Assembly: GCF_001011155.1 (NCBI RefSeq)
Contig: NZ_CP011479.1
Location: 3,242,501 to 3,306,500 of the forward strand
DNA length: 64,000 nt
Direction of reading: 5' to 3'
From: Hoeflea sp. IMCC20628
Lineage (GTDB): Bacteria; Pseudomonadota; Alphaproteobacteria; Rhizobiales; Rhizobiaceae
Shown here: positions 1,746 through 29,740 of the stretch, piece by piece
How positions within the stretch are numbered: position 1 is the first letter of the stretch
Layout of the letters: every line of letters begins with the position of its first letter
Position numbers and translations under genes: made by a program
The notes under the pieces: model-generated
Seen by the model: only the letters and a program-made list of their open reading frames with translations
The model's database searches: none
What the model was told of the DNA's origin: nothing

Positions 1746-2990
1746 TCACTGGCGAAGCTGTCGATCTATCCGACGACACCGCTTGCTTATCAGGTGGCCG
1801 AGTTTGTCGGCCATCTCTGCACCCGCGCCTTGCCCACCAAAGAGGGGCTCAAGTCTGCCATCCAGCTGGCTCATGACCTGGTCCGTCATTTCGCGAACAC
1901 GCCTGATAACCGAGACTGGGCTCAATCCGACAGCCTCTGCAAATTGTCGCCAATCGTTCCCGTGGAGTTCATTGGCGTTTCGCTTTGTCGCAAGTTGCTG
2001 AGGAAGTGACTGGTCCACCTGTTTGTAAACTGCTGCGCACATCAAATCATAGAGCGGTGCAAGTTTGGCAGTTCCCGCCGCACCGATGAGAACTGAATAG
2101 TTCTTGGCATGGGAGTCGGAATTGCAGATCAGGATGTTGAAAATCACGGCGTCAAGCAGCTTCAGCCTTTCGCCAGGAGAAACGTATCGCGCCAACGCGT
2201 CAAACATCTGCACCAGTGATGCGCCGCCGCGCTGTCCAAGTCCGGTACGCTCATACTTTTCGGGCGGAAACAGGCCGAGCAGCTGGCAAAAGTCTTCCTG
2301 ATGAATACGGCGAATTGTTCCTTGATCGTCGGCGAGACGATCATAGCGTTCGACCAAAAGGTAGTCTCGCTTTCCCGCCTTACCAGTCGTCACCTCAGCC
2401 GTCTCCAAACCGCAGAGCTTGGCCAAGGTCATGCAGAAGGCTTCATTTTGAACGCTTCCGGCCAGGCGTTTGATGTCCGGTTTCAGAATATGCGTAGAGG
2501 GCGTGCCATCGACGGGAATAGCTATCTTGCCATCTTTACCAATGTAGACAGGCAGTTTGTCCTGCACACCCGCCAAAGACATGGAGACCCCCTGCTCTCC
2601 GATCAGGAAGGGGCGCTCTGGCAGTTCGTTCAATATGCGCTCAAGCGCCGCCTCATCGGGGACAATGCGGAAATTATTTCCGCTTCGGCGCGGCTCACCG
2701 ATCGAAAAGGCTCCTGCGGTATCGCGGCCGAGGTTCATGAGAAGGCCGACAATGTCCTGAGGCGAAATTTTCAGCTGCTGACCAATCTCGGAGAGATGCG
2801 TTTCAGGCAGAAGATTGGCAAGCCAGGGCATGATCTGATTAGCCCCATAGGGGCCCGACCGCATCGGCATGGTCAGTGAGATTGGGAATGCCGAGGTGCG
2901 ACTTTCCCAACTCGGCTCATAGGCAAGCGAAATCCCATCGTGGTCGATGAGCTGGGCGACGGGCCAGGTTTCGTAATAGATCGTTGTCAC
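1746..2990 (-). CDS. hipA: HipA-family serine/threonine kinase toxin
   Basis: HipA toxins phosphorylate translation factors (glutamyl-tRNA synthetase in E. coli), causing growth arrest and persistence; the partner HipB neutralises them and represses the operon. This 414-residue protein has the usual length and order: the N-terminal HipA subdomain, 'SMSLAGVQDKLPV' with the downstream 'STHILKPD' substrate/nucleotide loop, then the C-terminal kinase domain with the catalytic loop 'NSDSHAKN' (general base Asp) and the metal-binding 'APLYDL'. All key kinase residues are present, so it looks active. It lies 12 bases downstream of hipB, so the pair is an operon, antitoxin first. The target of this member is unknown. 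Confidence 0.93.
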   Translation of the reverse strand: MTTIYYETWPVAQLIDHDGISLAYEPSWESRTSAFPISLTMPMRSGPYGANQIMPWLANLLPETHLSEIGQQLKISPQDIVGLLMNLGRDTAGAFSIGEPRRSGNNFRIVPDEAALERILNELPERPFLIGEQGVSMSLAGVQDKLPVYIGKDGKIAIPVDGTPSTHILKPDIKRLAGSVQNEAFCMTLAKLCGLETAEVTTGKAGKRDYLLVERYDRLADDQGTIRRIHQEDFCQLLGLFPPEKYERTGLGQRGGASLVQMFDALARYVSPGERLKLLDAVIFNILICNSDSHAKNYSVLIGAAGTAKLAPLYDLMCAAVYKQVDQSLPQQLATKRNANELHGNDWRQFAEAVGLSPVSVIRRVREMTDQVMSQLDGRLEPLFGGQGAGAEMADKLGHLISKRCRRIDRQLRQ

Positions 2991-3002: not shown

Positions 3003-3269
3003 TCAGGAGAACCGGGGTAGATAGCCGAGATCGTCATCGGCTTCAGAGGTAGCAGGCGACGTCGCAGATTTCAGGTCACCGAGATCGATGCCCACTGTCC
3101 GTGCCGCGATGAGTGACTTTTCAAGATGGCAACTGGGCTTGCCGCTCTCCAAGTCAACGATAAAGCGCTCACCGGTGCCGCAACGTTCGGCAAGCTGGGC
3201 CTGCGTCCATCCCAATTTTTTCCTGTGGTCTCTAACAAGTGTGCCGAAATCTGCGGCTGAACGGATCAT
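3003..3269 (-). CDS. hipB: HipB-like XRE-family antitoxin
   Basis: 88 residues. A cro/C1-type helix-turn-helix occupies about residues 8-62 ('LGWTQAQLAERCGTGERFI'), with a short acidic tail, as in HipB antitoxins that bind HipA and the operon promoter. The start is ATG at 3269, with a GGAGAG a little upstream. Three identical-class palindromes upstream (3291-3382) are its likely operators. Its first 29 codons are repeated, diverged, at 27298-27384, where an IS3-family element cuts the second copy off. Confidence 0.92.
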   Translation of the reverse strand: MIRSAADFGTLVRDHRKKLGWTQAQLAERCGTGERFIVDLESGKPSCHLEKSLIAARTVGIDLGDLKSATSPATSEADDDLGYLPRFS

Positions 3270-3290
3270 GAGGTGCTCTCCATATTTTGT

Positions 3291-3382
3291 CTTACCGTAC
3301 AGGAAGAGTATTCAGCAATCCATAAAAACTTCCCGATAAGGAAGCTCGCGGAGAAAATGGAGAATTCTTCCCTCTCGGTAAG
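3291..3382 (-). promoter_or_regulatory. Three HipB-like operators at 38-bp spacing
   Basis: Three 16-bp imperfect palindromes with half-site CTTMCY: CTTACCGTACAGGAAG (3291-3306), CTTCCCGATAAGGAAG (3329-3344) and CTTCCCTCTCGGTAAG (3367-3382). Start-to-start distance is exactly 38 bp twice. The same three words at the same spacing occur at 27406-27497, unchanged at all 48 positions, while the two 22-bp spacers differ at 9 of 44. Position upstream of hipB suggests autoregulation by HipB(A). Being between hipB and the divergent HNH leader, the array could control both directions. Confidence 0.7.
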
Positions 3383-3400
3383 GCGATGGCGAAGTGCTTA

Positions 3401-3636
3401 ATCACGGCTGATCTTTTGCTAAGCTGAAATCGGATGGAGGCAAGACAAATGGCTTGCCTGGAGTCGTAACAGACGATCTCGTCAGCGAAACGCCTGAAAG
3501 GCGCTCGTACCGTTCAAAGACTGCGGAGTGACGTATAAAGTATACGTCGTCTTGTGCGAGGATAATTCCTCCCAATTGAGGGGTGACCCATAGGGGTCAT
3601 TGCACGTCCGCTTCAGCAATGGAGCAAAGGACGTGG
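3401..3636 (+). ncRNA. Candidate structured RNA leader of the HNH gene, copy A
   Basis: A chain of hairpins runs up to the HNH start codon: 3439-3458 (6 bp), 3472-3483 (4 bp), 3491-3503 (5 bp), 3530-3548 (8 bp), 3558-3571 (GAGGA/TCCTC), 3584-3599 (TGACCC/GGGTCA) and 3603-3635 (CACGTCC/GGACGTG with an inner 5-bp stem 3610-3625). The last hairpin buries AAAGGA at 3626-3631, the likely ribosome site of the HNH gene. CCTC at 3568 could pair instead with GAGG at 3578, an alternative fold. Against copy B only five bases differ in 240; three are in stems and keep pairing (two become G-U, one G-U becomes A-U) and two are in loops. No known RNA family was recognised with certainty. Transcription and exact ends are inferred. 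Confidence 0.6.
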
Positions 3637-3640
3637 ACTC

Positions 3641-4018
3641 ATGACTTCAGGAAACAGACTCAAGAAACTCAGACAACAGGCGGCCCAGCAACAAGGTGGT
3701 CGCTGTTTCTATTGCCAGTACCCGATGTGGGTTTCCAGGCCCGAGGAATTCATCGGGCGCTATGGGATTTCACCTGGGCTGGCAAAGCGGTTTCAATGCA
3801 CTGCCGAGCATCTCAAGGCTCGATGCGATGGCGGCGAGGATATTGCGCCGAACATCGTGGCGGCTTGCCACTTCTGCAACACAAGACGGCACAGAACGAA
3901 GCATCCTGTGGATGCAGCCAAGCATGCTTCCGTCGTGCGTTTGAGGCTTGCGAAAGGCAGATGGCACCCGCCGCAAGTGAGAACGTCTTTCAGCGAACGA
4001 AGAGCTGTCCCTAACTGA
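3641..4018 (+). CDS. Small HNH nuclease-like protein, copy A
   Basis: 125 residues. It shows a zinc-ribbon HNH fold: Cys22-x2-Cys25 ('CFYC'), 'AEH' with His57, Asn71 and Cys76-x2-Cys79-Asn80, then His84/His88. The N-terminus is basic (residues 1-20) and the tail is Arg/Lys-rich, as expected for a DNA-binding nuclease. No PLMP, RuvC, methylase or other second domain is seen, so it is not IscB or IshB. Start ATG 3641 has AAAGGA upstream, inside a hairpin. The gene is preceded by the structured leader and is divergent from hipBA. Copy B at 27756 is only about 78% identical in protein, yet all metal and catalytic residues are kept. Role unknown: selfish nuclease, defence effector or RNA-guided partner are all open. 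Confidence 0.8.
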   Translation: MTSGNRLKKLRQQAAQQQGGRCFYCQYPMWVSRPEEFIGRYGISPGLAKRFQCTAEHLKARCDGGEDIAPNIVAACHFCNTRRHRTKHPVDAAKHASVVRLRLAKGRWHPPQVRTSFSERRAVPN

Positions 4019-4072
4019 TCCTCACGGGCGCGGTGACAATCGGTCAGCCTGGCTCATCAGCCTGACGATCCG

Positions 4073-4208
4073 TTTGGGAATTGTCTTGCACGACTGTCCC
4101 CCGGGAGTGTATGACAATTTTGTCTTACAAGAACTGCGGTGATCGGATTTCACCAACCATTTCAGATGCTTGTGAGGGGGTCGAAAAACCTTAGCTGGGG
4201 ATCCAGGT
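4073..4208. promoter_or_regulatory. Conserved trailer with 22-bp palindrome, copy A
   Basis: This 136-nt stretch downstream of the HNH gene differs from copy B at a single base, although it codes for nothing recognisable. It holds a 22-bp near-palindrome at 4108-4129 (arms TGTAT-GACAA and TTGTC-TTACA), a GGTGA/TCACC pair at about 4138-4155, and ends in GCTGGGGATCCAGGT, half of a hairpin that is intact only in copy B. It could be a regulator site, an RNA 3' part or a recombination site. Confidence 0.45.
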
Positions 4209-4381
4209 GATGGAGCCCAAGAAGGAATAGTGTCCGACCAGTGCGAAAGCGCAAAGGTCACAACCCATCTACAAGGGGCAGGAAGATCAACCTGCGCATC
4301 CGGCACCTTTGGCTCGTCAGGTGAGGACGGAAGCATCAACCTAAGGCAAAGAATCGACATTTGCGCTTCCAAAGACGTACA

Positions 4382-18294: not shown

Positions 18295-20577
18295 TCATTT
18301 CACCTCCACAACAGACCGGCCGAGAAGCGCCCGATCGGCGATATCGAGGAACCGCACTTCATAGACCCCAATCTCATCAGGCATTGTCATATCCATGGTT
18401 TTCTCGGCGCCAACTTTCTGAACAACGATCCAGCTGAAATCGGGCTGGTCCTTTCGAGCAAGTGCAATCCGTTGATCGGTGCTATCGCTCTCACCCGTCC
18501 AGGTAATTGTGATCGTGGCCCCTGGGCTGGCGGTTGTTGGCACTGACAACCCGGCTCCACCGTCAAGTGGTGCGTCTGCTGGAACCACTTCCAACTGTGC
18601 CGTCGCAAGGGTCTTTTTGCCCTCTTCCAGAACATAGCGAATTTCATAAAGTCCTGGCTCGGTTGGCGCGGTCAGCCTTCCCTTGGTCTTATCCCCCGTG
18701 CGAAGATGGGTATCGCGTGCACCCTCATCGACACCGGCAGGAACGATGGTTACGTAGTCGTGCCGGTTGACCGTGCTGGACCAGGTGATATCGACATCCG
18801 TACCGGCCCGAACGATGCCAGGGCCGGAAATGCCGATTTCGGCTTCAACCAGTTCGATAGCAGCGGTGGCGAGCGTCTTCTTGCCCTCCTCCAGCACATA
18901 GCGCACCTCGTAGAGCCCTGGTTCGGCGGGCGCCGCCAGACTACCCTCGCGGTCGGAGCCGGCGCGGATGTGGTTGCCGCGGCTGCCTTGGTCAGCTCCT
19001 GCGGGGACAATGGTGATGTAGTCACTCTCATTGATGGTTTTGGACCATGCCACGTCAAAGACTGCACCAATCGTGGCCTGCTCGGGGGCAGTGATTTCGA
19101 CCTGCGCTTCGACCAGTTCGACAGCAGCTATGGCGAGCGTCTTCTTGCCCTCTTCCAGCACATAGCGCACCTCGTACAGCCCCGGTTCGGAAGGCGCCCT
19201 CAGGTTGCCCTCGCGGTCGGAGCCGGCGCGGATGTGGTTGCCGCGGCTGCCTTGGTCAGCTCCTGCGGGGACAATGGTGATGTAGTCACTCTCATTGATG
19301 GTTTTGGACCATGCCACGTCAAAGACTGCACCAGTCGTGGCCTGCTCGGGGGCAGTGATTTCGACCTGCGCTTCGACCAGTTCGACAGCAGCTATGGCGA
19401 GCGTCTTCTTGCCCTCTTCCAGCACATAGCGCACCTCGTACAGCCCCGGTTCGGAAGGCGCCCTCAGGCTGCCCTCGCGGTCGGAGCCGGCGCGGATGTG
19501 GTTGCCGCGGCTGCCTTGGTCAGCTCCTGCGGGGACAATGGTGATGTAGTCACTCTCATTGATGGTTTTGGACCATGCCACGTCAAAGACTGCACCAGTC
19601 GTGGCCTGCTCGGGGGCAGTGATTTCGACCTGCGCTTCGACCAGTTCGACAGCAGCTATGGCGAGCGTCTTCTTGCCCTCTTCCAGCACATAGCGCACCT
19701 CGTACAGCCCCGGTTCGGAAGGCGCCCTCAGGCTGCCCTCGCGGTCGGAGCCGGCGCGGATGTGGTTGCCGCGACTGCCTTCGTCGGCTCCCGCCGGGAC
19801 GATGGTGATGTAGTCACTTCCATTGATGGTTTTCGACCATGCCACGTCAAAGGCTGCACCGGTTGTGGCTTGCTCAGGGGCTGTGATTTCGACTTCTGGA
19901 ACCACTGGCTGTTCGGGTTTCGCCTCTGGTATGACAGACGGCTCAGCCATGGCGCTTTGAACCTGTGCCAACGCGTCGTGCAATTCGGCCGCGTTGTTGG
20001 CTGTGACAAAAACGCCTCCAGTATTTTCAGCGATGCAGGACAGGCTGGCGTTCTCCTCATCCTTCAAATCAAATCCCACCACATGCGCGGTGAACTTCAC
20101 CCCTTTCTTGGTGAGTTGCGCAGACAGTGCGCAAGGATCTGCATTGCAGGTTTCCACTCCGTCAGAAATCAACACGACGGTGGCAGGGTTGTCGCGGAAC
20201 GACAACAGGTCTGCAGCGTGCTGCACCGCAGCCGAGATTGGCGTCTTGCCTACCGGCCTAATTGAATTGACCGTGTCGATGAATTTGCTTTTATCCAGCG
20301 GTCCGGGCGCGATCAGCGTTTGAATGTCGCGGCAATCGCCCTGACTACGGTGGCCATAGGCTACAAGGCCCAAATTAGTACCAGTGTCCCATTCACTGAC
20401 CAGATCGGCCATGACATCACGGGCGATCTCGATTTTGCTGGTGCCGTCGATCTGACCCCACATTGACCCAGAAGCGTCATAGACAATCACGACATCTTCA
20501 GCCGCGTTTGCAGATGTGGCACAGGCAATGCTACCCGCAATTATCATTGCCGCCAGTCTTGGTGCGATAAGTGTCAT
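18295..20577 (-). CDS. Exported von Willebrand A protein with six Ig-like repeats
   Basis: 760 residues from ATG 20577, which has GGAGGAA six bases upstream (ATG 20592 overlaps that site). Signal peptide residues 1-25 ('CATSANA|AED'). Then a vWA domain, about 28-210, with the MIDAS motif 'YDASGSMWG' and 'LISDGVETC'. A short Pro/Glu linker (about 215-230) is followed by repeats of 88 residues starting 'VEITAPEQAT'. Four are nearly identical, a fifth and sixth are diverged; all carry 'DYITIVPAGAD' and 'EPGLYEVRYVLEEGKKTLA'. The repeats look like beta-sandwich stalk domains. A metal-dependent adhesion or complex-assembly role in the periplasm or at the surface is likely. The next upstream gene on the same strand encodes a multi-pass membrane protein. 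Confidence 0.85.
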   Translation of the reverse strand: MTLIAPRLAAMIIAGSIACATSANAAEDVVIVYDASGSMWGQIDGTSKIEIARDVMADLVSEWDTGTNLGLVAYGHRSQGDCRDIQTLIAPGPLDKSKFIDTVNSIRPVGKTPISAAVQHAADLLSFRDNPATVVLISDGVETCNADPCALSAQLTKKGVKFTAHVVGFDLKDEENASLSCIAENTGGVFVTANNAAELHDALAQVQSAMAEPSVIPEAKPEQPVVPEVEITAPEQATTGAAFDVAWSKTINGSDYITIVPAGADEGSRGNHIRAGSDREGSLRAPSEPGLYEVRYVLEEGKKTLAIAAVELVEAQVEITAPEQATTGAVFDVAWSKTINESDYITIVPAGADQGSRGNHIRAGSDREGSLRAPSEPGLYEVRYVLEEGKKTLAIAAVELVEAQVEITAPEQATTGAVFDVAWSKTINESDYITIVPAGADQGSRGNHIRAGSDREGNLRAPSEPGLYEVRYVLEEGKKTLAIAAVELVEAQVEITAPEQATIGAVFDVAWSKTINESDYITIVPAGADQGSRGNHIRAGSDREGSLAAPAEPGLYEVRYVLEEGKKTLATAAIELVEAEIGISGPGIVRAGTDVDITWSSTVNRHDYVTIVPAGVDEGARDTHLRTGDKTKGRLTAPTEPGLYEIRYVLEEGKKTLATAQLEVVPADAPLDGGAGLSVPTTASPGATITITWTGESDSTDQRIALARKDQPDFSWIVVQKVGAEKTMDMTMPDEIGVYEVRFLDIADRALLGRSVVEVK
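18838..19893 (-). repeat. Four near-identical 264-bp tandem repeats inside the vWA gene
   Basis: Units at 19630-19893, 19366-19629, 19102-19365 and 18838-19101 have exact 264-bp periodicity (88 codons). The middle units are almost identical even at silent positions, so they arose or were homogenised recently. A fifth unit (18574-18837) is clearly diverged. Copy number is likely to vary between strains, and short-read assemblies could collapse it. Confidence 0.92.
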
Positions 20578-26062: not shown

Positions 26063-26938
26063 TTAAGCTACTTTTTGCATCTGCTGATCGGGTTTGTTTT
26101 CTTCATTTCCTTGCCAGTAGACCACGGTAGGTGGTTTACCGCCAAGGGCGGAATGGGGGCGTTTGTGATTGTAGAACTCCATCCATTTTTTGATCCCAGA
26201 TTTGGCCTCTGATCCGGTCTCCCAAGCATGCAGGTAAACGCACTCATATTTCAGGGACCGCCAGAGCCGCTCGATGAAGATGTTGTCGAGGAACCGGCCC
26301 TTTCCGTCCATTGAGATGCGGACGCCGGATCGGCGGAGGCGGTCTGTCCAGGCAAAAGACGTGAACTGGCTGCCCTGATCCGTATTCATGATTTCGGGCG
26401 AGCCGAACTTGTGGATAGCTTCGTTCAGCGCTTCAACGCAGAAGTCTGCCTCCAGCGTGTTCGAGATGCGCCAGGCCAGAACCTTGCGGGTGTGCCAGTC
26501 CATGATCGCCACCAGATACAGGAACCCACGCCGCATCGGCAGGTAGGTGATGTCTGCACACCACACCTGATTGGGCCGATCAACGCGCAACCCGCGCAAC
26601 AGATAGGGGTAAATCTTGTGACCCTTCGCCGCTTTGCTGGTGTTGGGCTTCTGATAGATCGGCATCAATCCCATCAGTCGCATGAGACGACGGATGCGTT
26701 TCTTGTTCACCAGATGATCATCGTTGCGCAGGTGCCATGTCATTTGTCGAACCCCATAGAACCGGGTCTCCAGGAATTGCTTATCGATCTGGCGCATCAG
26801 ATCGAGGTTCAGATCGGTCTCGCCTTTCGGCTCATAGTAAAATGACGACCGCGAGATCGACAGCAATGCGCACTGCTTGCCGACGGACAGACCTGGCAGG
26901 TTTGGCTCAATCATCTTCCGCCTCACTTGCCGGTCCAC
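26063..26938 (-). CDS. IS3-family transposase OrfB
   Basis: 291 residues, rve integrase core with the catalytic triad in 'CADITYLPM' (Asp), 'NTDQGSQF' (Asp) and 'NIFIERLWRSLKYE' (Glu). The N-terminal helical domain ('LPGLSVGKQCALLSISRSS') is complete. It overlaps orfA by 16 bases in another frame, so the active OrfAB protein would be made by -1 frameshifting. Confidence 0.93.
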   Translation of the reverse strand: MDRQVRRKMIEPNLPGLSVGKQCALLSISRSSFYYEPKGETDLNLDLMRQIDKQFLETRFYGVRQMTWHLRNDDHLVNKKRIRRLMRLMGLMPIYQKPNTSKAAKGHKIYPYLLRGLRVDRPNQVWCADITYLPMRRGFLYLVAIMDWHTRKVLAWRISNTLEADFCVEALNEAIHKFGSPEIMNTDQGSQFTSFAWTDRLRRSGVRISMDGKGRFLDNIFIERLWRSLKYECVYLHAWETGSEAKSGIKKWMEFYNHKRPHSALGGKPPTVVYWQGNEENKPDQQMQKVA

Positions 26939-27216
26939 GGTTTGAGCTTTCTGGCCAAAAAATCATTGGCGACGGCCAACTCCCCGATTTTAGCGTGCAG
27001 GTCTTTCACCTGCTCCTCATCAACCTCCGGCGTCTTTCCAGCGCCGCGCTCGAACACACCAGGCGCGCCCACGAGCAAGGCGCGCTTCCACTGGTGGATC
27101 ATAGTCGGATGAACCCCAAAACGACTGGCCAACTCGCTGACCGTTTCCTCGCCCTTCAGCGCTTCCAACGCGACCTTGGCCTTGAATTCTGGGTGATGTT
27201 GCTTCCGTTTCGACAT
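26923..27216 (-). CDS. IS3-family transposase OrfA
   Basis: 97 residues. Helix-turn-helix ('ETVSELASRFGVHPTMIHQW') followed by a leucine-zipper-like helix ('VKDLHAKIGELAVANDFLAR'), as in IS3 OrfA proteins that bind the terminal repeats. It overlaps orfB at its 3' end. Confidence 0.93.
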   Translation of the reverse strand: MSKRKQHHPEFKAKVALEALKGEETVSELASRFGVHPTMIHQWKRALLVGAPGVFERGAGKTPEVDEEQVKDLHAKIGELAVANDFLARKLKPWTGK

Positions 27217-27297
27217 CGTCGATCTCCTTCGTGTTGAAGATCAACAGACAACAAATCGCAGCTTGCGTCAGTGTCCGATTTTGGGGGGGGCAGCTCA

Positions 27298-27384
27298 ACG
27301 TTCGGCAAGTTGGGTCTGGGTCCAACCCAATTTTTTCCTGTGGTCTCGAACAAGTGCGCCGAAATCTGCGGCTGAACGGATCAT
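27298..27384 (-). pseudogene. hipB 5' remnant (copy B), cut by IS3
   Basis: 29 codons beginning 'MIRSAADFGALVRDHRKK' and ending 'QTQLAER', nearly the same as hipB at 3003-3269, then interrupted by the IS3 right end. The helix-turn-helix is incomplete. No second hipA is present. Confidence 0.88.
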
Positions 27385-27405
27385 GAGGTGTTCTCCATAC
27401 TTCAT

Positions 27406-27497
27406 CTTACCGTACAGGAAGAATATTGAATAATCCATAGAAACTTCCCGATAAGGAAGATCGTGGAGAAAACGGAGAACTCTTCCCTCTCGGTAAG
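27406..27497 (-). promoter_or_regulatory. Three HipB-like operators, copy B
   Basis: The same 16-bp palindromes as at 3291-3382, here at 27406-27421, 27444-27459 and 27482-27497, again 38 bp apart. They are unchanged although the hipB downstream is destroyed, so HipB from copy A could act here on the rightward HNH transcript. Confidence 0.7.
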
Positions 27498-27515
27498 GTT
27501 ACGGCGAGGTACTTG

Positions 27516-27751
27516 ATCACGGCTGATCTTTTGCTAAGCTGAAATCGGATGGAGGCAAGACAAATGGCTTGCTTGGAGTCGTAACAGACGATCTCGTCAG
27601 CGAAACGCCTGAAAGGCGCTCGTACCGTTCAAAGACTGCGGAGTGGCGTATAAAATATACGTCGTCTTGTGCGAGGATAATTCCTCCCAATTGAGGGGTG
27701 ACCCATAGGGGTCATTGCACGTCCGCTTCAGAAATGAAGCAAAGGACGTGG
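27516..27751 (+). ncRNA. Candidate structured RNA leader of the HNH gene, copy B
   Basis: Equivalent of 3401-3636. Changes against copy A: G-C to G-U in the first hairpin, A-U to G-U in the 8-bp hairpin, G-U to A-U in the inner stem of the last hairpin, and two loop changes. The last hairpin (27718-27750) again covers the AAAGGA ribosome site. Conservation drops sharply just 5' of 27516 and inside the coding region, which delimits the element. Confidence 0.6.
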
Positions 27752-27755
27752 ACTC

Positions 27756-28151
27756 ATGACTTCAGGAAACAGACTCAAGAAACTCAGAAAACAGGCGGCC
27801 CAGCGACAAGGCGGTTACTGTTTCTATTGCCGGTACCCGATGTGGGATTCCAGGCCCGAGGAATTCATCGGGCGCTATGGGATTTCGTCTGGGCTGGCAC
27901 AACGGTTCCAATGTACCGCCGAGCATGTCCAAGCTCGATGCGATGGTGGCAAGGACGTTGCGCCGAACATTGTGGCTGCCTGCCGTTTCTGCAACTCGAC
28001 GCGGCACAAGGCGAAGCATGCTGCGGATGCCCAGACCTATGTGTCGTTCGTGCGTTCGAGGCTGGCAAAGGGCAAGTGGCACCCGCCACAATTGAGGGCG
28101 TCTTTCAGCGAACGGAAAAATGCCTCCGACCGATCCTCACGGGCGCGGTGA
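27756..28151 (+). CDS. Small HNH nuclease-like protein, copy B
   Basis: 131 residues; six longer than copy A because the reading frame continues past copy A's stop. Zinc and HNH residues are all kept ('CFYC', 'AEH', 'NIVAACRFCN', 'TRHKAKH'), but about one residue in five differs, mostly charge-changing surface positions. That pattern suggests two working, diverged nucleases, not a fresh duplication. Downstream come the conserved trailer and a truncated integrase gene. Confidence 0.8.
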   Translation: MTSGNRLKKLRKQAAQRQGGYCFYCRYPMWDSRPEEFIGRYGISSGLAQRFQCTAEHVQARCDGGKDVAPNIVAACRFCNSTRHKAKHAADAQTYVSFVRSRLAKGKWHPPQLRASFSERKNASDRSSRAR

Positions 28152-28188
28152 CGATCAGTCAGCGCTGGCTCATTAGCCTGACGCTCTG

Positions 28189-28332
28189 TTTGGGAATTGT
28201 CTTGCACGACTGTCCCCCGGGCGTGTATGACAATTTTGTCTTACAAGAACTGCGGTGATCGGATTTCACCAACCATTTCAGATGCTTGTGAGGGGGTCGA
28301 AAAACCTTAGCTGGGGATCCAGGTTCCCCAGC
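28189..28332. promoter_or_regulatory. Conserved trailer with palindrome and hairpin, copy B
   Basis: Matches 4073-4208 with one change. The 22-bp palindrome is at 28224-28245. The end forms a complete hairpin, GCTGGGGA (28310-28317), 7-nt loop, TCCCCAGC (28325-28332), without a T-run. The start of the integrase frame lies about 75-90 bases further on, so this may be the attachment region or the integrase control region. Confidence 0.45.
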
Positions 28333-28419
28333 CAAATTAGTCTAAATAGTTCAACAGGTTAGCACATCTCGTCAGTGTGCGGAATCACCCCACATTGTAC
28401 CCCCACAATGGGCAATGCG

Positions 28420-29244
28420 ATGTCGAACTATCTCAGGCGTGAATCAGATTCATTTGTCTTCCGCAGACGGGTCCCCTCCTCGCTTCAAAATCGCCTCGGT
28501 CAAAAGGAAATATACCGATCCTTAAAAACGACTGTGCGAAGGATAGCCAAAGCGCGTGCCGCGTATCTATTCATAGCATCTGACAGGCTGTTTCATATGA
28601 TTGAAGAGTATGATGAGGAAAGGCTTTCCGACGAGGATATAAAAGCCGCTGTTCGGCATTGGCTCAGTTCGATCACATGGACAAAACGAATAGACGCAGG
28701 CCTGAATGAACTCTCGCCTGGCACATTGAGATCGCTTCAGGACAGACTTCCCGACATACTGCTGGATGCTGGAAAAGATGAAACTGTATCATCCGAACAC
28801 AACCTGATCGAGGAAGCTTGGTCAGCTCTTGAGTATTCTGACTACTCTGGTTGGGGCAAAGGCGAAACACTGACCAGAACGGTTACCGTGATGCAGCGGA
28901 CACTCAAGGAATATGTAGACAAGCGCGTGCAAGAGGTCTTCGAGCCAGACACTCAGGTGGCGGTGTCCATTCACGATACTCCGCCCCATTCAGCACCTGC
29001 CAATATGTCGAAAATCTCGACATTCATCCAAAAATGGCAGAACGACATAAAGGTCGGCTTCCGAGGTGGTAAAGGTCTCGAACCCGAAACGACTGACCAG
29101 TATCACCAGACCGTTGAGTTATTCATCGGATTGATGGGCAACCTACCCGTAGGCAAAATATCTTATGACCTCGCTGCCGATTTCCGTGAGAAGCTGCTCG
29201 GCCTTCCAGCCACACATGGGAAGGGGCGCACTGGTTCCATCAAA
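28420..29244 (+). pseudogene. Tyrosine integrase, truncated by an IS
   Basis: About 275 codons from ATG 28420 (ATG 28408 possible). The N-terminus 'YLRRESDSFVFRRRVPSSL' is the DUF6538/Arm-binding start of phage-type integrases, and the core-binding domain follows ('ISTFIQKWQNDIK', 'LFIGLMGNLPVGKI'). The catalytic domain (R-HxxR-Y) is missing because an IS3-family end begins at 29245. It marks a former integrative element extending to the right. Confidence 0.8.
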
Positions 29245-29740
29245 TGTCTGACGTCAGCGCCCGTGGGACAGATTTGAGGATTTGAACAACGGAGGATTTC
29301 TGGTTCATCTTACCGATTGGGAGATCGAGATGAGACAGAAGCCTGAAACATCGAAGAACGCAGCTGACAAGCTGGTCAAGAACATCCGCCGCAAGACCCG
29401 CCAGACCTATTCAGCGGAGGAAAAAATCCGTATCGTTTTGGCGGGTTTGCGTGGAGAGGAAAGCATCTCGGTGCTGTGCCGCCGCGAAGGTATCGCCGAA
29501 AGCCTGTATTACAGCTGGTCGAAGGAGTTCCTGGAAGCAGGCAAGCGCCGGCTCTCGGGTGACACAGCACGGCAAGCGACGTCGCCGGAAGTAAAGGACC
29601 TTCGCTCTGAAGCCTTGGCGTTGAAGGAATGCGTCGCCGATCTGACCCTGGAGAACCGCCTGCTCAAAAAAAGCATGACAGGTGCTGGGGAGGACGAGGC
29701 ATGAGATACCCTGCGACCGAGAAGCTTGAGATCATTCGTG
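29245..29740 (+). mobile_element. IS3-family element, 3' part deleted
   Basis: The left end is TGTCTGACGTCAGCGCCC... to 29271. Complete orfA follows, then only about 13 codons of orfB ('MRYPATEKLEIIR', from 29701), after which the sequence changes abruptly into the 3' end of mocA. The right end is absent. Confidence 0.8.
29330..29704 (+). CDS. IS3-family transposase OrfA (partner OrfB lost)
   Basis: 124 residues from ATG 29330. HTH region 'YSAEEKIRIVLAGLRGEESI' with 'LCRREGIAESLYYSWSKEF', then a leucine-zipper helix ending 'LTLENRLLKKSM'. Intact, but useless for transposition without orfB, which starts at 29701 and is cut after about 13 codons. Confidence 0.85.
   Translation: MRQKPETSKNAADKLVKNIRRKTRQTYSAEEKIRIVLAGLRGEESISVLCRREGIAESLYYSWSKEFLEAGKRRLSGDTARQATSPEVKDLRSEALALKECVADLTLENRLLKKSMTGAGEDEA

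Follow-up and report, generated by a model that had tools for sequence, protein, structure and literature searches.

A structured leader RNA with two competing helices precedes a small HNH endonuclease gene in a mobile cassette and may act as a translational switch

Why should a small nuclease gene follow an RNA that is better conserved than the nuclease itself? The question arises in a window of 64,000 nucleotides from Hoeflea sp. IMCC20628, where an HNH gene stands directly behind a folded leader, and where a second copy of the pair lies 24,115 bp downstream of the first (Table 1). A DNA search and an RNA-model search found two leader copies in this genome and no more. Compared pairwise, the leaders (3401-3640 and 27516-27755) differ at five of 240 bases, namely 3458 (C in copy 1, T in copy 2), 3531 (A/G), 3540 (G/A), 3617 (C/A), and 3622 (G/A). 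Three of these changes are in stems and keep the pairing (G-C to G-U, A-U to G-U, and G-U to A-U), and two are loop positions, exactly as an earlier note made from the sequence alone had claimed in calling all five compatible with the fold. The flank upstream (3270-3400) is identical to that of copy 2 at 112 of 131 positions and differs at 19. The HNH reading frames (3641-4003 and 27756-28118) share 305 of 363 bases and differ at 58, with 28 non-synonymous and 18 synonymous codon differences, and their proteins agree in 93 of 121 residues. The identity, given in the note as about 78%, is thus 76.9%, and the statement that the leader is conserved above the protein stands. Over this interval, the HNH protein appears to change fast next to a nearly frozen leader.

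Table 1. Positions of the leader, the HNH genes and adjoining features in the window
Feature	Position	Strand	Remarks
Structured leader and HNH gene, copy 1	leader 3401-3640, HNH 3641-4018	+	genome of 5.12 Mb
Weak candidate promoter, copy 1	3398..3425 (TTAATC 3398-3403, TAAGCT 3420-3425)	+	by analogy with relatives
Structured leader RNA, copy 1	3432..3640	+	~209 nt; without Rfam match
P0	3432-3437/3510-3515	+	encloses P1, P2, P3
P4a/P4b	3517-3553	+	
PX, competing long-range helix	3523..3611 (GCGGA 3523-3527 with TCCGC 3607-3611)	+	outside the covariance model
P5a	3554-3557/3602-3605	+	encloses P5 and P6
P7, terminal hairpin	3606-3614/3621-3632	+	3′ side holds the Shine-Dalgarno (SD) sequence AAAGGA (3626-3631)
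HNH endonuclease gene, copy 1	3641..4018	+	125 aa; CxxC ... CTAEH ... N ... AACxxCNxxRH
3′ region common to the copies	4019..4208	+	190 nt; also in L004, L006, L007, L009
Structured leader RNA, copy 2	27547..27755	+	
HNH endonuclease gene, copy 2	27756..28151	+	131 aa
att-like site	28316..28334	+	18/19 bases as in the 3′ end of tRNA-Gln(CTG), G000:C1:3202325-3202398
hipB	3003-3269	-	divergent neighbour of the cassette
hipA	1746-2990	-	divergent neighbour of the cassette

The leader was drawn with helices P1-P7 and the closing stem P0, in agreement with the seven or so hairpins that had been proposed. The fold energy of 3432-3640 is -86.3 kcal/mol as against -62.2 ± 4.6 for shuffled sequences (z = -5.20, none of 200 as good). 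The reverse strand is also stable (z = -4.55), which inverted repeats would lead one to expect; the G-U replacements seen in several helices point to an RNA of the + strand rather than to DNA hairpins. A scan against Rfam 15, one of the checks suggested in the note, gave no match at gathering in the window, so that the leader falls into no Rfam family; with E values up to 10, three matches appeared within 3250-4350, none of them credible and none to HEARO. The stretch GUUCAAAGACU resembles the R element of group I introns; the Rfam group I model gave no match, and this candidate was rejected.

Compensatory changes were counted in alignments of increasing breadth. In 16 Rhizobiales leaders (class A, alignment A3), the 63 scored pairs form in 95.0% of cells as against 33-48% for slid versions of the structure, a control that favours the drawn fold since the fold was read from those sequences. 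Double changes occupy 31 cells (12.4 ± 3.0 in shuffles, 0/500) and 11 pairs (7.3 ± 1.5, 9/500), while the number of further pair types shows no excess (35 against 37.0 in shuffles). Nineteen leaders from alphaproteobacterial proviruses, designated class A′, have the same layout, and RNAalifold scored them at -119 kcal/mol (ViennaRNA covariation value, 55.7). When 40 distinct A and A′ rows were fitted to the model structure (alignment A7), 100 double-change cells were found versus 38.2 ± 5.9 in shuffles (0/500); the weakest helices there are P4b, which pairs in 76.8% of cells, and P4a, with 80.0%. A lack of covariation in a larger alignment had been named beforehand as what would speak against a selected RNA; compensatory changes occur in A3, in A7 and in the long-range helix PX described below. 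Together with the fold z of -5.2, they confirm that the leader is a real, selected structured RNA.

Structured leaders extend beyond these two classes. Of 89 leaders, 60 have a z below -2 over the last 125 nt before the gene (mean -2.6), as do 18 of 182 controls (mean -0.5); by this score, no clear leader precedes the gene in L019, L021, L041, L052, L060, L106 and L121. Many leaders outside A/A′ have another shape in common, class B, in which three hairpins occur together with an SD hairpin. In a class B sample of 22 leaders out of 21 hand-picked loci, RNAalifold supports two helices with a covariation value of 10.6. Class B leaders escape the A/A′ model, which gave two matches over 58 sources, at E = 1 and 1.7.

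The protein behind the leader carries an HNH catalytic motif with invariant or nearly invariant C, H, N and H positions. Among 24 aligned members, 19 columns are invariant, including C22, C25, C53, H57, N71, C76, C79, and H84; among 30, H57 is nearly invariant. Pfam HNH (PF01844) scores 19.6 bits, just below its curated cut-off of 21.4, and no other Pfam domain was found. Neither PLMP nor RuvC is matched in Pfam or NCBIfam, as the note had observed. The NCBIfam IscB model gives 22.1 bits against a cut-off of 175, over model positions 204-244 of 314 and residues 52-92, i.e., the HNH part only. An AlphaFold2 model of the 125-aa protein (pLDDT 89.2) has as its nearest solved fold the Gme HNH nicking endonuclease 4h9d (E 3.6e-3, probability 0.99), which is also the best solved match by sequence profile (E 4.1e-5); Cas9 HNH domains, EcoKMcrA and Cap5 follow, and no match by fold, 4h9d included, reaches E 0.001. 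The likeness to 4h9d is limited to 20-22% identity and a partial superposition (TM 0.35-0.39 over the query), and to our knowledge no leader accompanies that enzyme. The free-standing HNH protein is probably a nicking endonuclease. Its closest named relative, 91% identical, is from Hoeflea sp. NORP7. PADLOC returned weak HNH-type matches only (best E 1.3e-4 among four members, 6.4e-3 for the window protein).

The family is present in five of 398 genomes of the phylum and eight of 297 of the family, counts that include the window's own genome, and further in 143 IMG/VR contigs (80 kept) and 11 plasmid records; no INPHARED record holds it. Two arrangements deserve mention in their own right: in L116, two different HNH genes, which start at 2980 and 3533 and are thus 553 bp apart, stand in tandem and have a leader each, and genome G478 carries three family members (L031, L033 and L034), with matching flanking genes around L033 and L034.

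How closely the leader keeps to this gene was followed in genomes and in phages. A covariance-model scan of 397 genomes of the order, under stricter filters, gave five matches in four genomes, two of which are absent from the model, and all five precede an HNH gene. Among viral contigs that share the methylase of the A′ phages (80 kept of at least 598 relatives), leader and HNH are both present in six and both missing from 74; for 77 contigs with a common gene of the Mu-like set (L084:627-1844), the counts are seven with both and 70 without either. In the two phage groups together, leader and HNH occur in 13 contigs and are both absent from 144, and one is never found alone; the contigs include redundant ones, some ending soon after the marker gene, and 10 of the 13 positives had already been found through HNH. 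The remaining positives, L144, L145 and L157, are 98-99% alike over a stretch of 600 bases. A wide occurrence of the leader apart from HNH, which the note had set against its own proposal, was not found in either search. The leader RNA, which has no Rfam 15 match, was met in these searches only alongside one HNH family.

Empty sites define the borders of the unit. Occupied contigs L172 and L198, compared with the empty L159, L170 and L187, show a net insertion of 608-609 bp (L194 against L172 aligned badly). The insertion of about 608 bp sits between two genes: on the left it begins at the stop codon of the upstream gene, a codon that overlaps the leader promoter in its -35 box, and on the right it ends shortly past the HNH stop. 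The minimal unit therefore consists of promoter, leader and HNH. Intergenic gain as a unit with empty alleles, a feature of homing endonucleases, is seen here in six occupied and 74 empty contigs. Empty-site comparisons on rhizobial plasmids gave no clean borders. Taken with the 13 contigs that have both parts and the 144 that have neither, the insertion bears out the suggestion that leader and HNH form a genetic cassette.

The predicted start of the RNA coincides with the start of the fold. The best hexamer pair lies 83-97 nt upstream of the core motif in 31 of 36 rows and 118-150 nt from it in the remaining five (copy 1, L007, L036, L039 and L073); in L004, L008 and L010, the chosen pair is unlike that of neighbouring rows. 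Where the common pair is present, the -10 box ends 6-9 nt upstream of P0. Since a promoter-like pair stands just before P0 in most rows, the RNA may be regarded as the 5′ UTR of HNH, and with a start predicted at P0, there would be no room for a 5′ guide. For copy 1, a stricter scan of 3350-4250 found no promoter-like site, and the transcript would be expected to start near 3432 by analogy with relatives. No terminator-like site was found on the + strand of 3350-4250.

The far end of the leader meets the ribosome-binding site. In class A, the SD sequence sits within P7, whose 3′ end in copy 1 is 8 nt upstream of the ATG. SD exposure was examined in loci that passed start and redundancy filters (81 out of 100 non-redundant ones); an SD-like motif is present in 62 of the 81 leaders, and in 19 none is recognisable. 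The mean unpaired probability of the SD in the 62 leaders is 0.22, as against 0.34 with shuffled upstream sequence, and it lies below the shuffled value in 46 of them (Wilcoxon p = 9e-6); for 101 other ORFs of the same loci, the mean is 0.35 (p = 7e-5). Outside A/A′, the mean is 0.10 versus 0.28, and the exposure is below 0.05 in 22 of 32 leaders (10 of 101 controls). The 14 class A leaders gave 0.25 versus 0.44. The 16 class A′ leaders showed no predicted masking (0.43 versus 0.36 shuffled), their SD adjoining P7 rather than lying inside it. The prediction, then, is that leader structure buries the SD in class A, as well as in the majority of leaders that belong to neither A nor A′, and does not do so in A′. 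In A′ (e.g., L062 2870-2994), reading by eye indicates that GAGACCC of the SD region could pair with a conserved GGGUCUC well upstream, which is a further candidate for SD masking.

P7 has a competitor. PX takes the 5′ strand of P7, so that PX and part of P7 are mutually exclusive. It first emerged from RNAalifold on the combined set, where it was preferred without having been drawn beforehand. In the covariance-model alignment, PX pairs in 195 of 195 cells (38-58% for slid versions), and both sides have changed in three of its five pairs (five cells versus 1.3 ± 0.9 in shuffles, 0/500), although the rows tested mostly overlap the set in which PX was discovered, L127 and L128 being the exceptions. 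P7 was counted sequence by sequence, since MAFFT misaligned P7 of A′, and the best-scoring partner was taken, which leans towards finding P7. Counted in this way, the inner half (at least four of five pairs) is present in 35 of 35 distinct leaders and the outer half is complete in 33; L119 and L127 have three of its four pairs, and the P7 of L127 has a 46-nt loop. The outer half occurs in the compensatory forms GUCC/GGAC, AUCC/GGAU and AUUC/GAAU. In L128, a U at the shared position faces A in PX as well as in P7; L127 has A at this position, facing U in either helix. Both sequences lie outside the model. Bases that keep two alternative partners are just what a two-state RNA predicts. By nearest-neighbour energies without pseudoknot terms, the PX state lies 6.1-21.5 kcal/mol above the minimum in 22 leaders, so that its formation would depend on timing during transcription, on tertiary contacts or on a bound factor.

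These observations suggest how the cassette may work. On balance, we lean towards the leader being a cis-acting two-state translational switch that holds HNH translation off, and among the three options considered in the note (guided nuclease, homing element and riboregulated gene), the riboregulated gene is best supported, since it agrees with the layout, with the predicted burial of the SD (in class A and, outside A/A′, in most leaders) and with the competition between PX and P7. The fold, the base-sharing helices, the linkage and the cassette borders are computed observations; the control of the SD by competition between PX and P7 is what we infer from them. In outline, a minimal mobile cassette would comprise its own promoter, a folded 5′ leader of about 209 nt and the 125-residue HNH protein. 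In the ground state, P7 would bury the SD, and the nuclease would not be made. Some trigger, be it a ligand, a factor from phage or host, or the HNH protein, might favour PX, which would capture the 5′ strand of P7 and free the ribosome site, and HNH levels would be set by this switching. Tight control would make sense if an unregulated DNA nuclease harmed the host element. The nuclease would probably serve homing or competition between elements, judging from its family and settings.

Competing sequestor and anti-sequestor helices over the SD are a general principle of translational riboswitches. The leader would share this feature, with PX and P7 having bases in common and both showing compensatory changes, but it has no Rfam match and its product is a nuclease of mobile elements. 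The nearest known control is that of T4-type homing endonucleases, small phage enzymes with a buried ribosome-binding site, of which mobE is of HNH type; RNA structure is reported to sequester the site of I-TevI, I-TevII, I-TevIII, segB and Aeh1 mobE (PMC2988022). Those systems use one hairpin, whereas here an RNA of about 209 nt with seven hairpins is joined by a conserved competing helix, has its own promoter-like site, and is carried by integrative islands and prophages. A search of open-licence PMC papers brought up none on the leader-HNH pair among the matches listed. The computed two-state switch, in which single bases retain two alternative partners, opens to test both the means by which mobile nucleases are silenced in their hosts and the signal that lifts the silencing.

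A hairpin would be enough to mask an SD; the leader's fold, which goes far beyond that, would also suit a protein-bound RNA. The leader might then be a partner RNA: HNH would bind it, perhaps after processing, and act as a ribonucleoprotein, in a layout like that of HEARO/IscB omega RNA, and the nuclease might be activated, inhibited or aimed by the RNA. We consider this rather unlikely, though binding to the nuclease would explain the size of the leader and its conservation beyond that of the protein. In HEARO/IscB omega-RNA elements, too, an RNA of about 200 nt directly precedes an HNH-containing ORF, and the unit is mobile. Moreover, the candidate pseudoknot P4a/PX adds to the elaborate fold, the leader was not found apart from HNH, and HNH parts of Cas9 and IscB are among the nearer matches, behind 4h9d. 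Against it, HEARO/IscB has RuvC, PLMP and a 5′ guide, none of which is matched or predicted here. The features of HEARO-associated proteins used for this comparison come from PMC9755519. Membership in the OMEGA systems is not supported: instead of RuvC and HNH in one protein, there are 125 residues with HNH only; the IscB match is far below its cut-off, as many other HNH enzymes match too, and covers the HNH part and not PLMP; and in place of a variable 5′ guide, the predicted 5′ end is at P0, with the -10 box a few nucleotides away in 31 of 36 rows. The aligned leaders have short loops and no spacer-like stretch. The resemblance to HEARO/omega guide RNAs drawn in the note is thus not supported. 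A more specific version, doubtful to a slightly greater degree, is a RuvC-free RNA-HNH ribonucleoprotein that evolved separately from OMEGA, in which a pseudoknotted 5′-UTR RNA of about 200 nt would switch or direct DNA nicking; phages and islands would have spread it with RNAs of two architectures. If the RNA did bind the nuclease, the RuvC lineage would no longer account for all RNA-nuclease systems of this kind, as this one would stand outside it.

A type III toxin-antitoxin system has a promoter, RNA repeats and then an RNase toxin, and a leader acting as RNA antitoxin or decoy for a toxic HNH protein would share the order of promoter, structured RNA and protein. The adjoining hipBA of several Hoeflea and Rhizobium islands and the rapid divergence of the protein (28 non-synonymous against 18 synonymous codon differences) would accord with it; yet the HNH fold sets the protein apart from type III toxins, which are RNases, the copy 1 leader has neither a tandem array nor a direct repeat of at least 12 nt, no terminator-like site intervenes on the + strand of 3350-4250, and the PADLOC matches are weak. 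We therefore hold this to be improbable. Still less can be said for a block kept as DNA, i.e., a target or recombination site with inverted repeats: the reverse strand folds too and the cassette lies near att-like sites in islands, but the G-U replacements and double changes keep RNA pairing, a promoter-like pair stands at a fixed distance in most rows, and in the phages of the empty-site comparison the cassette sits between two genes. This reading is very improbable. The likeness of the two copies could, finally, reflect mere recent gene conversion between paralogues 24 kb apart, the fold being incidental; we give it next to no credit, and the wider alignment already contradicts it, as the same RNA recurs, with compensatory changes, in prophages and in bacteria of other families. 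The switch reading is the one we retain.

The cassette travels with several kinds of elements. Strains of Sinorhizobium fredii are among its carriers (L023, L024 and L026). An intact tRNA-Gln lies 68.4 kb upstream of the att-like site with a DUF6538 gene, taken for the integrase, beside it; we infer that the site is the right end of an island of about 68 kb whose last gene is HNH copy 2. In Hoeflea islands, the cassette is the final gene before a site that matches the tRNA-Gln 3′ end but for one base, and in L005, L008, L010 and L011 (Rhizobium group), it precedes a sequence one base off the tRNA-Ser end of the Hoeflea genome that holds the window; the tRNA parentage of such sites was read from patterns in that genome. 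The 190-nt 3′ region of copy 2, L004, L006, L007 and L009 continues into the site resembling the tRNA-Gln 3′ end, while in copy 1 the homology ends at 4208. A tRNA search of 28 loci found one tRNA, in L021, far from the cassette. Phage integrases adjoin the cassette in L016, L019, L055 and L106; in L071, it lies between methylase and terminase, and in L056 among Mu-like head genes. In the provirus L050, an impB/umuC-type polymerase gene (Pfam) lies ahead of the HNH gene, and the cluster with this polymerase gene is also found in L051 and L059.

The hipBA genes neighbour the cassette in several Hoeflea and Rhizobium islands and lie outside the minimal cassette. At copy 2, in the region of 26063-27325 and 27365-28334, hipB is interrupted by what reads like an IS3-type element with two transposase-like ORFs, so that the start of hipB alone is left beside the leader. 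Within 28375-29704, an integrase-like DUF6538 gene starts 41 bp past the att-like site, stops after 300 codons and adjoins another transposase-like ORF; it may be what is left of a second element at that site. Elsewhere in the window, at 18584-19912, a unit of 264 nt (88 codons) occurs in up to five copies arranged head to tail, which appear to form an expanded repeat gene, the units being 83-92% alike over a longer family.
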